IMG/VR virus record: IMGVR_UViG_3300025769_000843 | Location: 1 to 23,906 of that record | DNA from: a virus | Strand: one strand, 5' to 3' | Length of the DNA: 23,906 bases | Shown: piece after piece, positions 2,539 to 22,767 of the stretch | How positions within the stretch are numbered: position 1 is the stretch's first letter | Layout of the letters: each line of letters opens with the position of its first letter | Made by a program: the position numbers and the translations under genes | The notes under the pieces: model-generated | Told to the model about the DNA's origin: nothing | Seen by the model: only the letters and a program-made list of their open reading frames with translations | Databases searched by the model: none

Positions 2539-4075
2539 TCCCCCTAGACTACCAGCAACAGTGGACTATAGGATTAACTCTATGTCCGGATACACTGTAG
2601 ACGAGTTAGAGTCTGGGATGACTAATGCTGTAGTAGAGAACTATGGAACACAGAGACAGGTCTACGCCACACAGCGTCCCTCTATAACTGTTACCGAGCT
2701 TGCCGCAGCCTCAGTCACCGACGCACGTGGCCGAGCAGTGTACCATTGGACCGAAGGCGATGCTATCTATATGGTCAACAACACTGACCTATACAAAGGG
2801 AACTATGGGACTAGTATCTCTTCTGCTATAACAGCCGGTACAAATCCCTGTACATTCCTAGAGCTGGATGATAAGCTGGTTCTTCTTGACTCCACGGGAG
2901 ACAAAGGATGGCAGATAGAGACTGATGATACTGTTACAGAGATTACAGACACTAATTTCCCTCCTAAAGACACTCCCGCTGTATCTTTAGCTTACGGGGG
3001 AGCCGTGCTTAATGGATACTTATTTGTCTTAGGGACTAATGGAACTGTCTATAATTCAGATAATGGTAGTGTTACCTCATGGACAGGAACTAGCTTTATT
3101 ACTGCGGAACGTGACTATGATGGTGGCCAATATCTGGGTAAGCACCACGATCACATTGCGGTACTAGGAACAAAGACTATAGAATTTTTCTACGATGCGG
3201 GCAACGCTACTGGCTCTCCCCTAGCTAGACGACAGGACATTATGTACAACGTAGGTTGTGCTGATGGCGCTGCCGTGTGGCAGGATGGCGACACTATCTA
3301 TTTTATAGGAGTGGACAACACTGGTGCTTATGCTGCTTACGTTTTAGATAATTTTAGACTGGAGAAGGTAGAGAACTCAACCATCAATGCCTTCTTTACC
3401 CAAGCAGGTATAACCCAAGGAGCAGGTATGGTAGGAGCAGGGCTCTCTGCTTTTGGTCACAAATATTTTATAGTGACTGTACATACTACTCCTGATGATA
3501 TCTTGCCTGCAATCTCTCTGTGCTACGACCTAACAACAAAGCTATGGAGTGAGTGGTCTACTCTCTCTGGAGCAGGGCTTGCGTTTCCCCTGATGTCTTG
3601 GACACTGCGTTCCGGTGCTAGTGAGGGACGAGCAGGGGAAGGTATTATGTCTAATGGAGACCTAGTAAGAATCCGAGCGGACATGTTCCCTATTGACGTT
3701 ACTGGCACTGATCCCTACTTCGTTCCCGGTTATTACGTTGATGATGACTACTACAATAATTTAGACGGAAGAACAGACAATATAGAGTTTAAGGTTAGGT
3801 TTGGCCAAGAAGACATGGGTATATCCAATTATAAATTCTGTCATAGTGTCCTTCCAGTGGCCACAAAAACTCCATCCTCCCAGACAGTTACAATTAAATG
3901 GTCTGATGAAGATAATCAAAGTTTTACGACCGGTAGAACTTTAGACTCTTCTACTAGGAGTAGAGTTAGACGAGCAGGAGAGTATGCCCGTAGGAACTAT
4001 GAACTACTTTACTCTGGATCAGAGGCTTATAGATTAGAAGGCCTTGAGCAAGAACTAACATTAGGAAGGAAATAA
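2531..4075 (+). CDS. P22 gp10-like packaged-DNA stabilisation (tail hub) protein
   Basis: This 514-residue protein resembles P22 gp10 (about 470 residues), which binds below gp4 to plug the portal and hold the tail needle. Visible features are the gp10-like opening (RLPATVDYRINSMSGYTVDE), then many short beta strands with W-x-G/D turns suggestive of a beta-propeller-like core, for example AVYHWTEGDAIYMVN near residue 70 and GAVWQDGDTIYFIG near residue 250. The start ATG overlaps the gp4-like stop by 8 nt. It ends 3 nt before the tail-fibre-like gene. Synteny with gp4 supports the call. Confidence 0.75.
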   Translation: MASPPRLPATVDYRINSMSGYTVDELESGMTNAVVENYGTQRQVYATQRPSITVTELAAASVTDARGRAVYHWTEGDAIYMVNNTDLYKGNYGTSISSAITAGTNPCTFLELDDKLVLLDSTGDKGWQIETDDTVTEITDTNFPPKDTPAVSLAYGGAVLNGYLFVLGTNGTVYNSDNGSVTSWTGTSFITAERDYDGGQYLGKHHDHIAVLGTKTIEFFYDAGNATGSPLARRQDIMYNVGCADGAAVWQDGDTIYFIGVDNTGAYAAYVLDNFRLEKVENSTINAFFTQAGITQGAGMVGAGLSAFGHKYFIVTVHTTPDDILPAISLCYDLTTKLWSEWSTLSGAGLAFPLMSWTLRSGASEGRAGEGIMSNGDLVRIRADMFPIDVTGTDPYFVPGYYVDDDYYNNLDGRTDNIEFKVRFGQEDMGISNYKFCHSVLPVATKTPSSQTVTIKWSDEDNQSFTTGRTLDSSTRSRVRRAGEYARRNYELLYSGSEAYRLEGLEQELTLGRK

Positions 4076-4879: not shown

Positions 4880-4912
4880 CAACTGCACCTACAACTTTAA
4901 AGGGAATAAAAA

Positions 4913-5488
4913 ATGAGTGATTGGTGGGATGAATGGGGTGAAGATCTCTTTGGTGTTGGAGTAGACTTGTGGAACCAGCAGAGTTCCTCAGATGCTATTG
5001 ATAGCTCACGAGATGATTTAGAGCAGGGATTTCAGAGGCAGAACCCGTGGTCTGTGTATCAGCCTATGATGGGTGCTGGTCTTATGAATCTATTGTCCGA
5101 TCCCGGACAGGTGGTTAATACTCCGGGCTATCAGTTCGCTTATGACCAAGGACTGCAAAGTCTCTTCGCTAAGCAAGCTGCTACTGGTAATCGATTCTCT
5201 GGTGGTGCGATGGTAGACACTATGAAGTTTGGTCAAGGACTGGCTTCACAGATGTATAACCAAGAGGCCAATCGCTACGCACAACTCTCTGGAGCTATGC
5301 AACCCATCCAAGGGGGTAATACTTTGGGACAGAACAACTCTGCTCTAACACAACAGCAGTCCTATAACCAAGGATACTTCTGGAACAACTTATTTAATAC
5401 TGCCACTAGTGCGTTCAACCCTACCTCAACTGGTAGCGGTGGAGACCCCTATGGTGGGTACACAGGTGCGACAGCCGGAGGACGGTAA
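4913..5488 (+). CDS. P22 gp7-like DNA-transfer / internal virion protein (191 aa)
   Basis: The protein is Gln/Asn/Gly-rich. It carries a layout typical of gp7-like ejection proteins of environmental podoviruses: a helical N-terminus rich in Asp and Gln, PWSVYQPMMGAG near residues 45-56, then PGYQFAYDQGLQSL near 71-84 and RFSGGAMVDTMKFGQ near 94-108, ending in a Gly/Ser-rich tail. Proteins of this type are packed in the virion and ejected with DNA to help form the trans-envelope channel. AAGGGAA precedes the ATG. It opens a four-gene block of probable internal proteins. The family call is from pattern and position. Confidence 0.68.
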   Translation: MSDWWDEWGEDLFGVGVDLWNQQSSSDAIDSSRDDLEQGFQRQNPWSVYQPMMGAGLMNLLSDPGQVVNTPGYQFAYDQGLQSLFAKQAATGNRFSGGAMVDTMKFGQGLASQMYNQEANRYAQLSGAMQPIQGGNTLGQNNSALTQQQSYNQGYFWNNLFNTATSAFNPTSTGSGGDPYGGYTGATAGGR

Positions 5489-5489
5489 C

Positions 5490-6347
5490 ATGCCTGATCC
5501 GTTAGACATACTGAACAGTATTATTACGGGGCAGAACTCAGTAGACCAGTTCTCTCAGGGCACAGATATGCTCAGTGGTTTATTCCCTCCCCGTAGGGAT
5601 GCTAACCTTGCTGGGTCTGGTGCCTATGAGCCTCGGTATAGGGCCGGTACATTTCTTCAGCCCGGACAGAATATGTGGGGCACGGGTGCTAACCTGATGT
5701 CTTTGTTCCAAGGAAGAGGACCCGGCAGCGGCGGAGGTAACACTCCCGGTTGGACTGTGGCTTCTCAGCCTAGACAGTCTACTGGAGATATCGGAACTGG
5801 AGAAGGTGGTGCAATGTCAGAAGGTGCTTCCATGTCTGCGGATATGGGACAGGTAGCCAAGCTTGGTTTAGCTATGCTCATGGGAATGCCGATGCCTATG
5901 ATACTACAGCAGATACCTAAGATACAACTGACTGCCAACAATAATCAAACAACCAATGCAGACACTAGCGGTTTCGGTGGAGCAATGGGAGAGTCCGTTA
6001 CTGAAGGAGCTCAAGGAGCTATAGGTAATGAAGGGCCCGGCCAAAAAACTGGTCCTGATCCAGCGACAACTGGAGCTCCCGTTGGAGAGTCTAAACAAGG
6101 TGCTCCTACTACTAAAACTAAAAAAGATAAACCGGCAACATGGAGTGGTGTGATGCCCGGAGGCAGGCGAGACGGCGCTGTTGCAGACACCAGTGGTTTT
6201 GGAGGTGGTTTCGGTAGAGACTTCACAGGTCCCGCAGTAGGAACCTTGGGTAATGAAAGTCCCGGCATGAAAGCAGGGGGCAACAATTCCTCTTCTGGCG
6301 GAGGATCTTCTGGTACAGGCTCCCCGGGCGATGGACGAGACAGGTAG
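5490..6347 (+). CDS. Gly-rich probable ejection/internal virion protein (285 aa)
   Basis: I chose the ATG at 5490, two bases after the previous stop and behind GGAGG at 5478-5482; the frame is open back to 5409, but that part overlaps the gp7-like gene. The protein is rich in Gly, Ser, Pro and Met, largely low-complexity, with one hydrophobic Met-rich helix around residues 117-145 (KLGLAMLMGMPMPMILQQI) that could enter a membrane. Two imperfect ~32-residue copies starting ADTSGFGG lie at nt ~5959-6054 and ~6184-6279. The hydrophobic helix within a flexible virion protein fits an ejected protein; this is inference. No named family was recognised. Confidence 0.65.
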   Translation: MPDPLDILNSIITGQNSVDQFSQGTDMLSGLFPPRRDANLAGSGAYEPRYRAGTFLQPGQNMWGTGANLMSLFQGRGPGSGGGNTPGWTVASQPRQSTGDIGTGEGGAMSEGASMSADMGQVAKLGLAMLMGMPMPMILQQIPKIQLTANNNQTTNADTSGFGGAMGESVTEGAQGAIGNEGPGQKTGPDPATTGAPVGESKQGAPTTKTKKDKPATWSGVMPGGRRDGAVADTSGFGGGFGRDFTGPAVGTLGNESPGMKAGGNNSSSGGGSSGTGSPGDGRDR

Positions 6348-13137: not shown

Positions 13138-13217
13138 CGGATAACAAACTCCACAAAAGTTATAACAAATATAACACATACTATTCCAATCGCTACTTTA
13201 TCGTAAATAGTTGTCAT
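13134..13217 (-). CDS. One-pass membrane micropeptide (27 aa)
   Basis: The ATG at 13217 overlaps the RNR stop (ATGA), and the TGA overlaps the DUF3310 ATG (ATGA), so this frame exactly bridges the two genes. The product starts MTTIYDKVAIG and continues with a hydrophobic run (IVCVIFVITFVEFVI) ending in Arg, giving a single predicted membrane helix. Exact stitching at both ends is good evidence for translation and for a coupling role, but no family is recognised. A second micropeptide of this kind closes the same operon. Confidence 0.6.
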   Translation of the reverse strand: MTTIYDKVAIGIVCVIFVITFVEFVIR

Positions 13218-14881
13218 ACTCCACAGCTCCCACCTTTTCCGGTAATATCACAAATGTCGTGTTCTTCAAACACTGTGCCTTTATGCTTCATGGCTTTGTC
13301 ATACTCTACAACAGTAAGAGGCTGACCGCCACGACTCCCATCAGGATAAGCAGTAAATCCACGAAGTCTAGACGCATATTTAGCAAGTAACTTAGCGAAG
13401 TCCATAACTGTTTCATCATTGTTCTCTTTTGATCCCCACGCTGGTAAGTTGATAGTTGAACTGATACTCATGTCTACATACTGCTGAATATCAGCTTGGA
13501 ACTTTATTCGTCTCTCAGGGTCCTTGGCAAGATCCAGAGCAGTTTCAATTGTGCTCGGGTCTACGTTGTAGTCTTCGATAAGCTGTGCCGCAGTCGAATC
13601 AACCACGTACTCATACTTCCACTTAGTTCCATCAGTAAGGTAACGGCGCTTATAAGCAACAGCGAATAGTGGTTCGATCCCTGTTGTTGTTCCGGCAAGA
13701 ATACCAATAGACCCAGTAGGAGCAATAGCCCTATAGGCCGCAGGACGGCTGAGATAAAGTCTATCGCAATGAGAATTAGCAGCCTCTTCTGAGACATCTC
13801 TATAAACCGCCAACCACTTATGTAGCTCCGGAGTAACTTCATATTTATCCCCACGTTTTAAGAGCCACTCGTGGACTCCCATAAGTCCAAGTCCAAGACG
13901 ACGGTTCTTTTCCCGAATATCATATACTTTTTGGTATGGTAGTTCAGCTCTAATAGTTCCACAGACCAGAAATTTGGCTGCGAGCGCTGTAACTTCTGCA
14001 AGCTCTTCCAGAGTGTCAATATTGCCGAGGTTGATACTACCAAGATTGCAAACGTCAGAATCATCTTCACTTGTAACTTCCGTGCAAGCGTTCCTAAGTG
14101 TTTCATTTTCCTGTTCTCCAAAGTTAAAGCTGAATCCCGGTTCCCCTGTTTTCAGGGCCTGTCGGCAATTCTCTACAAAGGTATCAGGCAGTTCACCATT
14201 CTGGATAGCAACTAGGAACTCGTTGTCGTAGTTCAAGCTAATGTTGGTCATATCCAGTGGAGCAGCGAAATTGAAGTTATCATTCTTCCCATCGCCGAAA
14301 CTGTATCCTTCGTGAATTTCCATTTCATCCCAGTTCTTAGCTCGTAGGAAAGATTCAGCATCATCATGCTGCCAGTTGAGTGACGCATAAATGGCTGATC
14401 GGCGAGATCCCCCTTGCATCACGTTACGTCCTATCTCATTGATAATATACATCAACGGAATGGGACCACTGGAGATTCCTCCAGTTCGTGATAGGGTGTG
14501 TCCTTCTGGTCGGAACACTGAGTAATCTACACCGATTCCACCACCTGTCATCAAGCAGCTAGTCACACGCTGACATAAGGCTGCCCACTCTTCACGAGTG
14601 TCCTCCTCTCCTCTAAGCAAATAACAGTTGTTGTAGAAGGCAGCAAGTCGACCGGCGTAGTAGATATACCTACCACCCGGCATGAATTTCATTTCAGTAA
14701 TAAGCTGTTGTAGCCTATCCCGTTCTTCTTGTCCAAGGATTGGATGCTGTGTACCGCCAGCAGTCCCACATACATCATCGACAATAAGGCGAGCCCTTTC
14801 GGGCCAGCCTTCAGTATTGTCTTGGTACTTGTTGACGTACGTATTCTTGGCGAAACTATTCTTAAAGTATTCTTTTATCAA
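13214..14881 (-). CDS. nrdJ: Class II (adenosylcobalamin-dependent) ribonucleotide reductase
   Basis: This 555-residue enzyme reduces ribonucleotides to deoxyribonucleotides for phage replication. Visible catalytic features are N264-x-C266-x-E268 (NACTEV, thiyl-radical Cys and Glu), the redox pair C86 (YNNCYLL) and C278 (CNLGSINL), the phosphate loop APTGSIG near 387-393, and a C-terminal Cys pair (C544 and C553 in the final GGSCGV) for re-reduction. No adjacent nrdB (class I) or nrdG (class III) partner is present, and SEDDSDVCNLGSINL is typical of phage class II enzymes. The start is TTG at 14881, preceded by AGGAG at 5-6 nt spacing. It depends on host or environmental B12, an inference from class. 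No intein or gap is seen. Confidence 0.85.
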   Translation of the reverse strand: MIKEYFKNSFAKNTYVNKYQDNTEGWPERARLIVDDVCGTAGGTQHPILGQEERDRLQQLITEMKFMPGGRYIYYAGRLAAFYNNCYLLRGEEDTREEWAALCQRVTSCLMTGGGIGVDYSVFRPEGHTLSRTGGISSGPIPLMYIINEIGRNVMQGGSRRSAIYASLNWQHDDAESFLRAKNWDEMEIHEGYSFGDGKNDNFNFAAPLDMTNISLNYDNEFLVAIQNGELPDTFVENCRQALKTGEPGFSFNFGEQENETLRNACTEVTSEDDSDVCNLGSINLGNIDTLEELAEVTALAAKFLVCGTIRAELPYQKVYDIREKNRRLGLGLMGVHEWLLKRGDKYEVTPELHKWLAVYRDVSEEAANSHCDRLYLSRPAAYRAIAPTGSIGILAGTTTGIEPLFAVAYKRRYLTDGTKWKYEYVVDSTAAQLIEDYNVDPSTIETALDLAKDPERRIKFQADIQQYVDMSISSTINLPAWGSKENNDETVMDFAKLLAKYASRLRGFTAYPDGSRGGQPLTVVEYDKAMKHKGTVFEEHDICDITGKGGSCGV

Positions 14882-14889
14882 TTCTTCTC

Positions 14890-15648
14890 CTAGGTAGGAA
14901 TTTGTTTTAGTATGTTTCTACGCTTAGCCGGATCAAGACAGGTCATACGATCTTGTAACCAAGTACCACAGTCCTGACACTGATACCTCTGGTATAGTTG
15001 TGTCTTAGTAGCACGAGTGCCTTCCTTATGTAGGTTCTCACTACCACAATTGGTGCAGACTGGTCGGTCGCTGTCGGAGAACATACCGTAGTTAGGATGC
15101 TCAGTGATCCAAGGAAGTAGCCTCTCGTATAAAGGAGTCAGCAGATGTACATCTTGTATGTTGTACTCCATCATTTCCTTACACGACTTCTTGTCCCCTT
15201 CCATTACCTCTGTCCACAGCTCCATTCCACGGTGATGTACCTTTGCTCCTAGTCCGAGTCTTTTACAGACATAGTCCAATTTGTTGGATGGGAACCTAAA
15301 GTTCCGTCTGACAACTGGCAACAGGTCAATCTGTGCGTAGGGTGCTGGTGGTGTCCACTCTTGTACTAGGAACTCACCATTGAGGATCTTAACATCGAAC
15401 TTCTTTCCATTGTAATGTATAACTGCGTCGGCCTCATTCAACAACTGCCAAGCAGCATCCAGCATACCTTCAAAGCCATCTGTCCATATAGAATGGAACA
15501 TTACCTTGTTATCTCCCTTCCACCTTGCAGCGAAGCAAAGGGTATACCCCGGAACCTCTATGTGGTCAGGAGAGATATACTTCGTGAAACAGGACCATAT
15601 GTACGCACTGTGCGGGGCTGTCTCTATGTCAATCTCTAGTATTTTCAT
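14890..15648 (-). CDS. DEDDy 3'-5' exonuclease with C-terminal zinc ribbon (252 aa)
   Basis: The N-terminal domain carries the DnaQ/RNase H-fold exonuclease motifs: D7-x-E9 in EIDIETAP, N80-x-x-x-F84-D85 in HYNGKKFDVKIL, and Y162-x-x-x-D166 in EYNIQDV. That completes the DEDDy set, so metal-dependent 3'-5' exonuclease activity is expected. Residues 198-227 form a zinc ribbon (C198-x2-C201 ... C224-x2-C227, RYQCQDCGTW) like those that bind DNA in transposases. It lies between endonuclease/exonuclease genes and RNR, consistent with a role in replication, recombination or host DNA turnover. The start ATG overlaps the preceding stop (ATGA). The polymerase has its own exonuclease domain, so this one is additional. 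Confidence 0.82.
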   Translation of the reverse strand: MKILEIDIETAPHSAYIWSCFTKYISPDHIEVPGYTLCFAARWKGDNKVMFHSIWTDGFEGMLDAAWQLLNEADAVIHYNGKKFDVKILNGEFLVQEWTPPAPYAQIDLLPVVRRNFRFPSNKLDYVCKRLGLGAKVHHRGMELWTEVMEGDKKSCKEMMEYNIQDVHLLTPLYERLLPWITEHPNYGMFSDSDRPVCTNCGSENLHKEGTRATKTQLYQRYQCQDCGTWLQDRMTCLDPAKRRNILKQIPT

Positions 15649-16057: not shown

Positions 16058-16274
16058 CAAAATGGGCGTCCCCGCTAAGGGCATCTGATATATCGTCGCC
16101 ATCTAGTTCCTCCAGCTCTCCGTTACACATACATGCTCGTATTATTTCATCGGAGTTTGCAATATATTCCAGTGCAATCCCGTCATCTTCCGTTACGTCT
16201 TTCAAGTACTCAAAAGTCTCCAGAAGATATTCAGCTTCATACTTTGTTATCTTTATAAAAGTCACCTTAGTCAT
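16047..16274 (-). CDS. Acidic hypothetical protein (75 aa)
   Basis: I chose the ATG at 16274 (MTKVTFIKITKYEAEYLLE), which overlaps the endonuclease stop by 8 nt; a TTG at 16289 would add five residues. The protein is strongly acidic, ending EELDGDDISDALSGDAHFDDD, with a helical first half. It resembles the many small acidic early proteins of T7-like phages, some of which mimic DNA to inhibit host enzymes, but there is no direct evidence for this here. No family is recognised. Confidence 0.62.
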   Translation of the reverse strand: MTKVTFIKITKYEAEYLLETFEYLKDVTEDDGIALEYIANSDEIIRACMCNGELEELDGDDISDALSGDAHFDDD

Positions 16275-16701
16275 CTGTAGTCCAATCAATCGGTATCAAT
16301 CCAATGGCGTAAGGAATATCTCTTAACTCACACCATCTTGAATACCGCATCTTTGCTCCTTTTTGTAGGGGGTTGTCTCGTTGAAATACCATCCGCAGGT
16401 CCATATCAGGGTAGTGCTCACACACATTCTGTATGATCCTACGGCTCTGTGCATCAAACTTACCTTTAGTTTCTACGTAAACGTGGGTCTCTGGGAAGAA
16501 GAAGTCTGGGGTATATGTTCTACCTTTAACCACCTCCGTACTTCCACAGAGTTTACACACACCATTACCTACAGGGTCTTCATACTCAAACGAATCGGGC
16601 TCATACTGGAAGTCTACGTCGTTCTTCTCTAGGTGAGCGGCTTGTTTCGCTTCAAATTTACTCCTGTATCTCAAGTAAGTCTCTCCATTGTTCAGTTCCA
16701 A
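16267..16701 (-). CDS. Endonuclease I, T7 gp3-like Holliday-junction resolvase (144 aa)
   Basis: The protein follows the T7 endonuclease I pattern: RSKFE (E17), TYTPDFFFP (D66) and VYVETKG (E77, K79) give the E...D...ExK nuclease centre, followed by YPDMDLRMVFQ, the KGAKMRYSRWCE block and a terminal LIPIDW as in the T7 enzyme. It would cut branched DNA, resolving packaging concatemers and degrading host DNA. The start is TTG at 16701 with GGAGA ~6 nt upstream, inside the last 44 nt of the exonuclease gene. Unlike T7, a CKLC pair (C49, C52) is inserted before the catalytic strand. Confidence 0.88.
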   Translation of the reverse strand: MELNNGETYLRYRSKFEAKQAAHLEKNDVDFQYEPDSFEYEDPVGNGVCKLCGSTEVVKGRTYTPDFFFPETHVYVETKGKFDAQSRRIIQNVCEHYPDMDLRMVFQRDNPLQKGAKMRYSRWCELRDIPYAIGLIPIDWTTDD

Positions 16702-17524
16702 AGGTGTCTCCGGGTCTGAGGATATAAACCAGTTGGGCCATCTCCTTCATGATCTCCTCGCCTTCAGGACCATAATTATCTACGTATAGTTGTTTGACGT
16801 ACTCTACTAACTCCTTGTGAGCACCAGCAAATTCATCAACTATTTTACGTGCTTTCTTGTCTGCAATTCCCGGCAGCCCGGGGATAGCGTCCACTGCATC
16901 TCCTGATAGTAGCTGTGTAAAGAACCAGCAATCAGCCTCGTACATATCCACGATCATATGTTCATCTGTCACAAAGTTGTAGTGCCGTCCGGGGACTTGC
17001 TGTAAATCTTTGTCGTTTGAGCATATGACTGTAGTTGTAGTCTGGGCCATTCCCATAGCATCATCAGCTTCTAGATTCTCTGGGACAGTAGCATCATAGA
17101 AATCCAGTAGGAATTTCCTAGCGGAGTGTTTGAGTTTAGGACCTTCAGGCCTACCACTCTTATACTCTTTTACTGTGGCTATTTCGTGCCTGAAACATTT
17201 ACGGGGAGACAGGTAAACCTGATAGTTCACAGCACCAGTTTCCTTCATGATGTCTTCAATAAACTTATTGATTAGGAAATGTAGATTGTTGATAGGCTCA
17301 ACTATTACTTCCATCTCCCAATCCTCTTCGTTCCAGTGCTCCTTAATCCAAGCGCGGACACCTTTCTCAGGACCGTCTAGTGTCTCAACTAACCAGTCAT
17401 TAGCTTTCTGTTTACCTGTGAAGAACTCCCCAGTAGGAACATGAGTGTATACCGTTTTCTGACAGGCAAACGCTGCACGATATACAATTATGTCACCATC
17501 TATCAGGGCAGTTAGTTCACTCAC
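16658..17524 (-). CDS. 5'-3' exonuclease, T7 gp6/FEN-like (288 aa)
   Basis: FEN-family metal ligands are in order: D9/D11 (LIDGDIIVYRAA), basic YKSGR at 121-125, E152/D154/D155 (LEADDAMG), D171/D173 (CSNDKDLQQVPG) and D209/D212 in the helix-hairpin-helix segment GDAVDAIPGLPGI. The size matches T7 gp6 (about 300 residues). In T7 this enzyme removes RNA primers, degrades host DNA and helps concatemer recombination. It starts with GTG at 17524 overlapping the upstream stop (GTGA), and its end overlaps endonuclease I by 44 nt. Adjacent endonuclease, SSB and polymerase complete a T7-type set. Confidence 0.9.
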   Translation of the reverse strand: MSELTALIDGDIIVYRAAFACQKTVYTHVPTGEFFTGKQKANDWLVETLDGPEKGVRAWIKEHWNEEDWEMEVIVEPINNLHFLINKFIEDIMKETGAVNYQVYLSPRKCFRHEIATVKEYKSGRPEGPKLKHSARKFLLDFYDATVPENLEADDAMGMAQTTTTVICSNDKDLQQVPGRHYNFVTDEHMIVDMYEADCWFFTQLLSGDAVDAIPGLPGIADKKARKIVDEFAGAHKELVEYVKQLYVDNYGPEGEEIMKEMAQLVYILRPGDTFGTEQWRDLLEIQE

Positions 17525-18082: not shown

Positions 18083-18657
18083 TACCATTCTCCATCTTCC
18101 TCTACTTCGTCTTCCGGTGGTACTTCATCTGACATGTTAGTATCAAATTCAGCTTCCAGTTCTTCCGCAGAAGCCATGATCTCGTCATGTCGATCAGGTA
18201 CTTCAAAGACGGTCTTGTATAGCTCGTCTGCTACCGCTTTAATCTGCTCAAGGAACAGCTCGTATTTTTCAGCAGGCTTCTTACTCTTGGCGATACCAAG
18301 GTATCCCAACTCAGTTGCTGCCATAACAATAGGCGTTGCTTCCTTCAGGACTGCCATATAAGTAATCTTCTTATCTTTAGCATCCCAATCAGTTTTACCC
18401 GCAGCCTTACCAGCGGCCTTTGTCTCTACAGCTTCTCCTTCTTTGGATTGAAGGGATGCCAGATCCATGTGCTTACCATACTTGTCTTCGGTGAATGAAA
18501 ACTTTACTCGATTTCCCTTTTGGCAAGGGGCTTGTTTTTTACCTGTACGGAACCAAAGGTCTCCGCTATCGGTTTTTACGCAAACAGAGTAGTAAGTTCC
18601 TGAACTCAGTTCCTTAGCACTCATTGCTGCAACAGTTCCAACTATAATATTACTCAA
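18082..18657 (-). CDS. Probable single-stranded DNA-binding protein (191 aa)
   Basis: Residues 3-70 have strand pattern and aromatics suitable for an OB fold (GTYYSVCVKTDSGDLWFRTG, NRVKFSFTEDKYGKHM). Then comes an Ala/Gly/Lys linker, a helical part, and a strongly acidic tail ending DEVEEDGEW. An OB fold plus an acidic tail with a terminal aromatic residue is the arrangement of T7 gp2.5 and bacterial SSB, where the tail recruits polymerase and helicase. It is directly downstream of the polymerase and upstream of the exonuclease. The start is TTG at 18657, with GGAG ~10 nt upstream. Sequence similarity to known SSBs is not obvious, so this is from architecture and context. Confidence 0.65.
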   Translation of the reverse strand: MSNIIVGTVAAMSAKELSSGTYYSVCVKTDSGDLWFRTGKKQAPCQKGNRVKFSFTEDKYGKHMDLASLQSKEGEAVETKAAGKAAGKTDWDAKDKKITYMAVLKEATPIVMAATELGYLGIAKSKKPAEKYELFLEQIKAVADELYKTVFEVPDRHDEIMASAEELEAEFDTNMSDEVPPEDEVEEDGEW

Positions 18658-20788: not shown

Positions 20789-21969
20789 TACTCCATTCTC
20801 ATGATCTTGGTGTTAAAAAACACAGTGACAGGGGTTTTCTGTCCTGATACCTTATTCTTACAGAAACTCAGGCACCTAGTGCCATTCATTTCCATTTCTT
20901 GGGTAGCACCAATACCTAACATCAGGTCTGTTGCTCCCGGTAACCCTACATTAGAGTTATCTACGTCACCTCTTTGCAGGACGGCTCTACCATCTGCACT
21001 ATCAGCTCCCTGTGCTACGCTCACGCTAACTAGACCATATCTCTTGGCTAGATTACGCATGAAGATTGCACCGGACTCTAATCGGCGGACTAAATCGTGG
21101 TCACCTGTGTCTATATTACGAACTTGATCAGCCACGACTATATCAGGGTTATATTTATTTACAAGTGCTTCTATCTCAGACGGAGTTCCGGGGGCTAGTG
21201 GAGCCCAGATCAGATTATCCCAGCCTTTCTTCATGGCTAGGGCCTCTGCCTTTTGATAGTATTTACGGACGGCCCACTTATCTCTACCTGTAATTGATAC
21301 TAGCATACGCTCTACAAGATCCGACATGGGATCTTCGTTACATATGTACAACACTTTCTTGCCTTGCGCTATCCAGTGTCGTATTTCATCAAGTACCAAC
21401 AGAGTCTTACCTAGGTCAGTCACACCAAATATCAGTATGTGATGACCGGGTAGTGCTCCACCTTCTAAGGCGTCGTTAAGTTGGGGTGGGGTGAAAGACA
21501 ACCTATTTTCCTGTTGTCTCATTGCGAAAAGATCATTAAGGTCTGGGGCGATTATAATCTCACTAGAAGTATCGCTTCCTAGTTCTCCTAGGAGCAACAA
21601 TTCTCTCTCTTCCCAGAGCTTAGAAATCTTAGACTTTTCTCCCACTGCTAGAGCCTGTCCTAATTCACGGGCGTTCCTTTCCGTCTTTTGGTCCAGTACT
21701 GCTTGAATGACATTTGATACTGAGGTATCTGTAAAGGAGTCCACTACCCCTGCTAGCATGTCAGCATGTTTAGGTAGTGCTTGCTCCAGACCCACCTTCA
21801 GTAAATCAGTGTCAACCTTTTGGGCGCTATCATCCTTACTGTAGTAAGCAGCTATTTGATCCCATAGCACCTGTCCTTGATCGGACAGATCGCCTCGTAT
21901 ATGGTATCCATTTAGCTCGATATATGCTCCCCTATCAAGGCAAGCAGCGTTCAGTATTTTATTTTCTAT
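20788..21969 (-). CDS. Replicative DNA helicase, RecA/DnaB-type (non-canonical start)
   Basis: The C-terminal domain has Walker A GVTDLGKT, the catalytic-Glu strand YICNEDP, Walker B DIVVADQV and a sensor-like SVSVAQG, as in T7 gp4/DnaB helicases. The first ordinary start is GTG at 21870 (360 aa), but the frame continues upstream with helicase-like N-terminal sequence (ENKILNAACLDRGAYIEL ... WDQIAAYY), so that start is too short. Between 21870 and the in-frame TAG of the primase (21982-21984) there is no ATG/GTG/TTG. AGGAG (21983-21979) is 9 nt from ATA at 21969, used here as the tentative start (393 aa); ATT at 21978 is another candidate. It unwinds DNA ahead of the polymerase. Its stop overlaps the next ATG. 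Confidence 0.82.
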   Translation of the reverse strand: MENKILNAACLDRGAYIELNGYHIRGDLSDQGQVLWDQIAAYYSKDDSAQKVDTDLLKVGLEQALPKHADMLAGVVDSFTDTSVSNVIQAVLDQKTERNARELGQALAVGEKSKISKLWEERELLLLGELGSDTSSEIIIAPDLNDLFAMRQQENRLSFTPPQLNDALEGGALPGHHILIFGVTDLGKTLLVLDEIRHWIAQGKKVLYICNEDPMSDLVERMLVSITGRDKWAVRKYYQKAEALAMKKGWDNLIWAPLAPGTPSEIEALVNKYNPDIVVADQVRNIDTGDHDLVRRLESGAIFMRNLAKRYGLVSVSVAQGADSADGRAVLQRGDVDNSNVGLPGATDLMLGIGATQEMEMNGTRCLSFCKNKVSGQKTPVTVFFNTKIMRME

Positions 21970-21981
21970 GTTGTAAATCTC

Positions 21982-22767
21982 CTATAATAGTAAATCCACT
22001 GTCTTTTTCATATATTCATGTCCCAAATCTTTTGGGTCTGATAATGTCTCTAACACATGAAACTCACTAAAGAATAAATTGTATTTCCTTTTCAGTAGAT
22101 GGGCCTTCTCCCTAGCATCCCAGTCCAGCCATAGAACAACTTTCTTATACCCCTGCTTTAGTAGGGCTCTGACTTTATCATCATTTAGAGTTGTGCCCAG
22201 TAGGGCAACTCCTTGGATGTTACAATACTGAGTAACTTTAATTGCTGATAGGACATCTTCTACTAGTATCACAGTGTCTTTATTCTCCAGACATCTGTTT
22301 CGAGTGTAGTGGAGCATGGGCTGGGTCTTGTCTTCTATGTAATGCATAGCCTTATTCCCTGATCCAAAATACTTCGTTGTTTTTCCAAAGTATTTTCCGT
22401 CCCCATTGAATAAGTTCATACTAATTCCAGCAACTCCTAGTATCTTACGAAATTGTTCCATTCTTAGAGTAGTGAGTTTGATTTCGTACTTAGACAAGTA
22501 TTCTTCATAGAAGTTCCGACCTAGGAAAGAACTTTCTTTTTGGAAGAACGTAGGTGGAGGAGGTTTAACCTTGTCTTCAGAGTACCCAACAGAGCCCCCT
22601 ATTACACCTTTAGTGTTGCAGGAAGGACGCCAGCACTGGTACAGAATACTCCCTTCTCTCCTTGTTATTCCGAGTTTATTCCGACCACAATTAGGACAAA
22701 GAGCAGTAATACTTTCGTCTTCTCCTAAAGACAGGGCCTCTAGTTTAATATAATCTAACTCGTTCAT
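21982..22767 (-). CDS. DNA primase, zinc-finger plus TOPRIM (261 aa)
   Basis: I start at the ATG at 22767, which overlaps the upstream stop (ATGA); the frame stays open to a TTG at 22839, but those residues look unrelated. The zinc-binding domain is C24-x2-C27 ... C45-x4-C50 (ALCPNCG, YQCWRPSC), as in T7 gp4. The TOPRIM core has E170 (ILVEDVLSAIK), D215-x-D217 (LWLDWDARE) and SDPKDLG. It would make RNA primers for the polymerase. In T7 primase and helicase are one polypeptide; here they are in the same frame but separated by a TAG. Confidence 0.88.
   Translation of the reverse strand: MNELDYIKLEALSLGEDESITALCPNCGRNKLGITRREGSILYQCWRPSCNTKGVIGGSVGYSEDKVKPPPPTFFQKESSFLGRNFYEEYLSKYEIKLTTLRMEQFRKILGVAGISMNLFNGDGKYFGKTTKYFGSGNKAMHYIEDKTQPMLHYTRNRCLENKDTVILVEDVLSAIKVTQYCNIQGVALLGTTLNDDKVRALLKQGYKKVVLWLDWDAREKAHLLKRKYNLFFSEFHVLETLSDPKDLGHEYMKKTVDLLL

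Follow-up and report, generated by a model that had tools for sequence, protein, structure and literature searches.

A replicative helicase gene with a probable AUA start codon in a virus record, and AUH starts in replication genes of its relatives

Introduction

AUH start codons have been described in a small number of bacterial genes, and several of these are tied to translational control. Initiation factor IF3 acts against start codons that are not AUG, GUG or UUG, and its own gene, infC, begins with AUU in E. coli, with AUC in Streptomyces (PMC5472188) and with AUA in S. aureus (PMC13009471). AUA and AUU starts accompanied by an extended Shine-Dalgarno (SD) sequence in S. aureus yield about 10% of the output of AUG; for ccpN in rich medium the figure reaches 30% (PMC13009471). 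In Streptomyces, a GTC start of sigR fixes the proportion of sigR to rsrA (PMC5472188). No phage gene with an AUA/ATA or AUU start turned up in a literature search that did not extend to subscription papers, and earlier cases may exist.

Phage T7 gp4 is a fusion that carries primase and helicase in one frame, and its helicase part is unlike a DnaB-type helicase with an N-terminal domain of its own. Here we analyze a 23,906-base virus record (the window) in which primase and helicase also occupy one frame, but the relatives of these genes are unfused and the helicase is of the DnaB type, with its own N-terminal domain. The window shares the primase-helicase-polymerase gene order and homologous proteins with the Zobellviridae phages VpV262 and Vibrio phage 1.015.O, whose helicases start at ATG, unlike the ATA of the window. 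Among isolates, the best helicase matches are Zobellviridae Vibrio phages at 29-33% identity, judged from this single gene.

Like infC, the window helicase combines an AUH codon with a strong SD sequence, but infC is a bacterial gene autoregulated by its own product, whereas this is a phage gene whose product is no initiation factor. Staphylococcus ccpN and cvfC1 likewise start at AUA or AUU, there with an extended SD sequence and an output about 10-30% of that of AUG (PMC13009471); their start codon is conserved across species, whereas the helicase start described here varies between ATA, ATC, ATG and TTG. In sigR, a rare start cuts the yield of one of two neighboring co-translated genes (PMC5472188), but the codon is GTC and IF3 dependence was tested there, whereas in the window helicase it is AUH and a role for IF3 is something that we infer.

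The primase-helicase junction

The original prediction held that primase and helicase share one frame split only by a TAG, that no ATG, GTG or TTG precedes 21870 in the helicase frame and that an ATA stands 9 nt after an AGGAG, all of which the sequence bears out (Table 1). Beyond the primase TAG the frame reads GAG ATT TAC AAC ATA GAA AAT AAA ATA and stays uninterrupted for 397 codons, as far as the helicase stop codon. The upstream gene matches Pfam Toprim (E=7.6e-5) and the PHROG DNA primase family (E=3.1e-15). The AGGAG has an anti-SD duplex energy of -7.3, equaled or bettered at 5% of random positions; the sequence preceding GTG 21870 is weaker (-4.5). Of 32 genes surveyed in the window, only the helicase lacked any plausible canonical start while its open upstream frame held an ATH codon behind a well-spaced AGGAG, and the absence of a start codon from this gene exceeds chance. 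Folding of the mRNA over 21945-21999 (minus strand) predicted a weak hairpin holding the SD sequence (-6.5 kcal/mol, z -2.2 in 55 nt); a 101-nt piece gave no signal (z 0.7), and the hairpin was left out of the argument.

Table 1. Positions of the features discussed, in window coordinates.
Feature	Position	Strand	Remarks
DNA primase gene	22767-21982	-	261 aa; zinc-binding and Toprim; ATG 22767-22765, stop TAG 21984-21982
Shine-Dalgarno AGGAG	21983-21979	-	Overlaps primase stop codon; 9 nt before ATA
ATA, proposed helicase start codon	21969-21967	-	From alignment of homologue starts and SD
DnaB-like replicative helicase	21969-20788	-	393 aa counted from ATA; stop TAA 20790-20788
Helicase codons 2-33, first helices of DnaB-like N-terminal domain	21966-21871	-	Lost under GTG 21870 start
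GTG, first in-frame canonical start, rejected	21870-21868	-	Codon 34 from ATA
DNA polymerase A gene, downstream of helicase	20585-18723	-	ATG start in window; Pfam DNA_pol_A E=3.1e-33
Neighboring genes matching nuclease/nucleotide families	13214-14881, 14890-15648, 16267-16701, 16658-17524	-	

Matches of the neighboring genes are to ribonucleotide reductase, an RNase H-like/PolB-type exonuclease, phage endonuclease I and a 5'-3' exonuclease, and these neighbors form a typical replication and nucleotide cluster. A nucleotide search of the window against phage records gave no match, and a scan of prokaryote genomes for relatives found none. When the junction was scanned with the third base of the proposed start codon left open, the sole match was a second IMG/VR contig (L001), which also has ATA and differs from the window by a single base, at 18190, across 6,093 bases; the two contigs are perhaps not independent and may stem from related samples.

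The stretch before GTG 21870 encodes part of a DnaB-type domain

Residues 4-396 of the stop-to-stop frame match PHROG_19 (DnaB-like replicative helicase; E=1.1e-34). The Pfam families AAA_25 and KaiC-ATPase are matched above cutoff and DnaB_C below it (16.2 versus 27 bits), and the protein has a RecA-type ATPase domain with the Walker A motif GVTDLGKT. A profile built from 24 helicase relatives matches E. coli DnaB over profile positions 2 to 331; the Pfam model of the DnaB N-terminal domain gives sub-threshold matches only, in L017 and L063. An AlphaFold2 model (mean pLDDT 89.9) has a helical N-terminal domain within residues 2-126, with its first helix beginning at residue 2 when numbering starts at ATA; the helices 2-11, 13-21 and 24-27 and the beginning of helix 30-45 are modeled with a pLDDT of about 90. 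The best solved matches of the model in Foldseek are DnaB helicases (E about 3e-19). From the PHROG_19, profile, AlphaFold2 and Foldseek results, the disputed stretch is the start of a DnaB-type N-terminal domain.

As an ordinary start codon and the earliest in the frame, GTG 21870 might be where translation begins, leaving the 33 codons upstream as an untranslated or decayed remnant. Such a start would cost the protein helices 2-11, 13-21 and 24-27 and truncate helix 30-45, and its SD sequence is weaker than the AGGAG before ATA. The codons upstream are conserved at the amino-acid level, and the helicases of relatives start upstream of this position. Across codons 2-33 most changes fall at third positions and pN/pS is 0.43 against L009 and 0.66 against L008; because the stretch is short (32 codons) and its silent sites are near-saturated, these values back coding status imprecisely. 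They support the view that codons 2-33 evolve as coding sequence. We consider the internal start very unlikely, and rejected it on structure and conservation.

The N-terminal domain also bears on the suggestion, made in the original prediction, that amber readthrough yields a T7 gp4-like primase-helicase fusion beside free primase. The single frame split only by TAG is what such a mechanism would call for, but a helicase with its own DnaB N-terminal domain is unlike gp4. In 65 relatives both genes could be seen; they share a frame in 16 (about one third expected by chance), overlap in 34 and are fused in none; primase and helicase are separate genes in all relatives, not one polypeptide. As 16 of 65 does not exceed chance, the common frame of the two window genes is most plausibly a coincidence. 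In L008 the genes lie in different frames, and neither L009 nor L008 has anything corresponding to the codons that separate TAG from ATA. Readthrough, to which we give hardly any credence, was discarded on the frame statistics and domain structure, and the related suggestion of a recent split of a fused gene fails on the same evidence.

Homologous starts coincide with the ATA codon

A MAFFT alignment places the ATA codon at the first methionine of two helicases annotated with ATG, those of Vibrio phage 1.015.O and Stenotrophomonas phage StenR_269. The nearest helicase relatives are L009 (59% identical over the matched segment), which reads ATG GAA AAT AAA ATA at this position, and L008 (53% identical), which reads ATC GAA CAG AAA TTA, is preceded by AAGGTG and has no NTG in its first 25 codons. 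L017 and L012 share the ATG of L009. The window helicase carries an AUH codon and no NTG at the homologous start position, behind a strong and well-spaced SD sequence. On conservation of AUH at the junction, which the original prediction had proposed to check in related phages, the relatives are mixed, with ATC in L008 but ATG in the other three.

Initiation at ATA 21969, raised in the original prediction as a very rare event, is strongly favored by the homologous starts, the SD sequence, the position of the first helix and the ATC or ATG at the same position in relatives. We conclude that the window helicase is probably a protein of its own, DnaB-like and 393 residues long, with translation beginning at AUA 21969-21967. 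Against this stand the ATG of the close relative L009 and the normal weakness of AUA, given that the helicase is expected to be essential and multimeric. No AUH helicase start occurred among the cultured relatives examined (MEP402, CRP-235, CRP-738, CRP-212, VpV262, 1.015.O, 1.070.O and StenR_269).

If the host read AUA as methionine, ATA would be an ordinary start and no regulation need be invoked. However, ATA codons inside helicase and polymerase fall opposite Ile, Val and Leu (Met 4-5%), so that AUA does not stand for Met throughout; reassignment would also leave the ATC and ATT starts of relatives unexplained. This explanation is contradicted by the internal alignments and carries next to no weight.

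AUH starts recur in helicase relatives

Eighty-eight distinct family members, the window included, have an intact helicase N-terminus; their starts are ATG in 63, TTG in 12, GTG in 8 and ATH in 5. The five are the window and L054 with ATA (L054 being the same contig as L091) and L008, L063 and L070 with ATC. All five lack NTG and have the ATH codon with an SD sequence 5-9 nt upstream, and multiplying the frequencies of ATH codons in each of these genes gives 1e-6. Within one clade the start column reads ATC in L063 and L070, ATA in L054, TTG in L050 and L094 and ATG in L092 and L064, and the upstream sequence is not conserved. The L050 (TTG) and L054 (ATA) proteins are 98% identical.

An automatic start-column test flagged 4 of 139 usable helicase ORFs (5 of 139 with L063 added by hand) and found no AUH start among 312 ORFs from twelve further families at these loci, one of them primase. 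Fisher's test gives p 0.0026 (0.0086 without the window), uncorrected for relatedness and for the hand-added L063. One primase, in L229, fails the automatic test yet has an ATG a few codons on, and none of 68 primases with a recognizable zinc motif lacks an NTG start.

These starts bear on the suggestion, also made in the original prediction, of a sequence error, in which the base at 21967 would be wrong or a rare variant in a phage population that mostly has ATG. ATA is one base from ATG, which L009 has at this place. A second contig nevertheless has ATA, with one difference elsewhere in 6 kb, three relatives have ATC, which is not a G-to-A error, and three polymerases have ATT. The second contig and the ATC of relatives make a base error less likely, and we regard it as improbable. 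Three of the five starts are ATC, although inside those genes, in L063, L070 and L008, it is the rarest Ile codon (3 of 20, 1 of 30 and 2 of 29 internal Ile codons among the three); this speaks against simple G-to-A errors.

ATT starts in the DNA polymerase gene

Polymerase starts were judged partly by hand, on close homologues, and the polymerase N-terminus is variable; on this footing 3 of 84 distinct relatives start at ATT. They are L063 (AGGAG, 7 nt), L094 (AAGGAG, 7 nt) and L080 (AAGGAGG, 5 nt), the last based on more distant homologues. Close homologues of the L063 and L094 proteins have GTG (L064) or ATG (L138, L090) at the ATT position. Both genes are affected in L063, with ATC in the helicase and ATT in the polymerase. 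In a survey of its 57.8-kb record, no gene but the polymerase came up as a further candidate, having an ATH after a well-spaced AGGAG and no SD sequence at its canonical codons; the helicase escapes the survey filter because of a GTG a few codons downstream.

A possible role for AUH starts

The AGGAG overlapping the primase stop codon would place ribosomes at AUA, and ribosomes just finishing primase, about a dozen nt upstream, probably help initiation there. Initiator tRNA would pair with AUA by a third-position mismatch, which is disfavored by IF3, so that AUA should lower helicase output relative to AUG. The SD sequence and the terminating primase ribosomes may offset this lowered yield, and AUA may tie helicase output to primase translation and to the level of host IF3. 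We infer AUA use, reduced yield, primase coupling and IF3 dependence.

The repetition of AUH in helicase and polymerase of one phage group suggests that replication proteins may be tuned through start-codon strength. AUH starts might, in the strongest form, be a recurrent, selected control of replication genes (helicase and polymerase, not primase) in a group of Zobellviridae-like phages, one that uses IF3 and primase coupling to gate the assembly of replisomes and is systematically overlooked by NTG-only gene finders, a possibility that we put forward tentatively and think somewhat doubtful. Because the start codon differs between sisters, AUH itself may not be under selection; the codon could instead be drifting, under tolerance, from one weak start to another where the SD sequence is strong. 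Sister genes with ATG, TTG, ATC and ATA at one site form a natural set for reporter comparison. Annotation restricted to NTG is suggested to truncate or misplace genes with AUH starts.

Other features of the related loci

The polymerase gene is broken by an insert of about 0.6-0.7 kb in L118 (L118:2758-3342) and L232 (about 4900-5600). Both inserts contain an HNH-type endonuclease-like protein, recognized by eye, and look like an intron or homing element; neither gave an Rfam intron match at the gathering threshold. In Methylophilales phage MEP402 (L235, 4107-6218), the annotation splits the polymerase into two genes, and a small ORF separates them. The L009 helicase (L009:3001-3300) has its ATG start, lacks about 30 residues and changes frame near 3240, through real damage or an assembly error. 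In Vibrio phage 1.070.O (MG592447.1; L006:2887-2998), the annotated helicase start lies too far downstream; homology, together with an ATG at L006:2887 that overlaps the primase gene, suggests a protein with 37 more residues.
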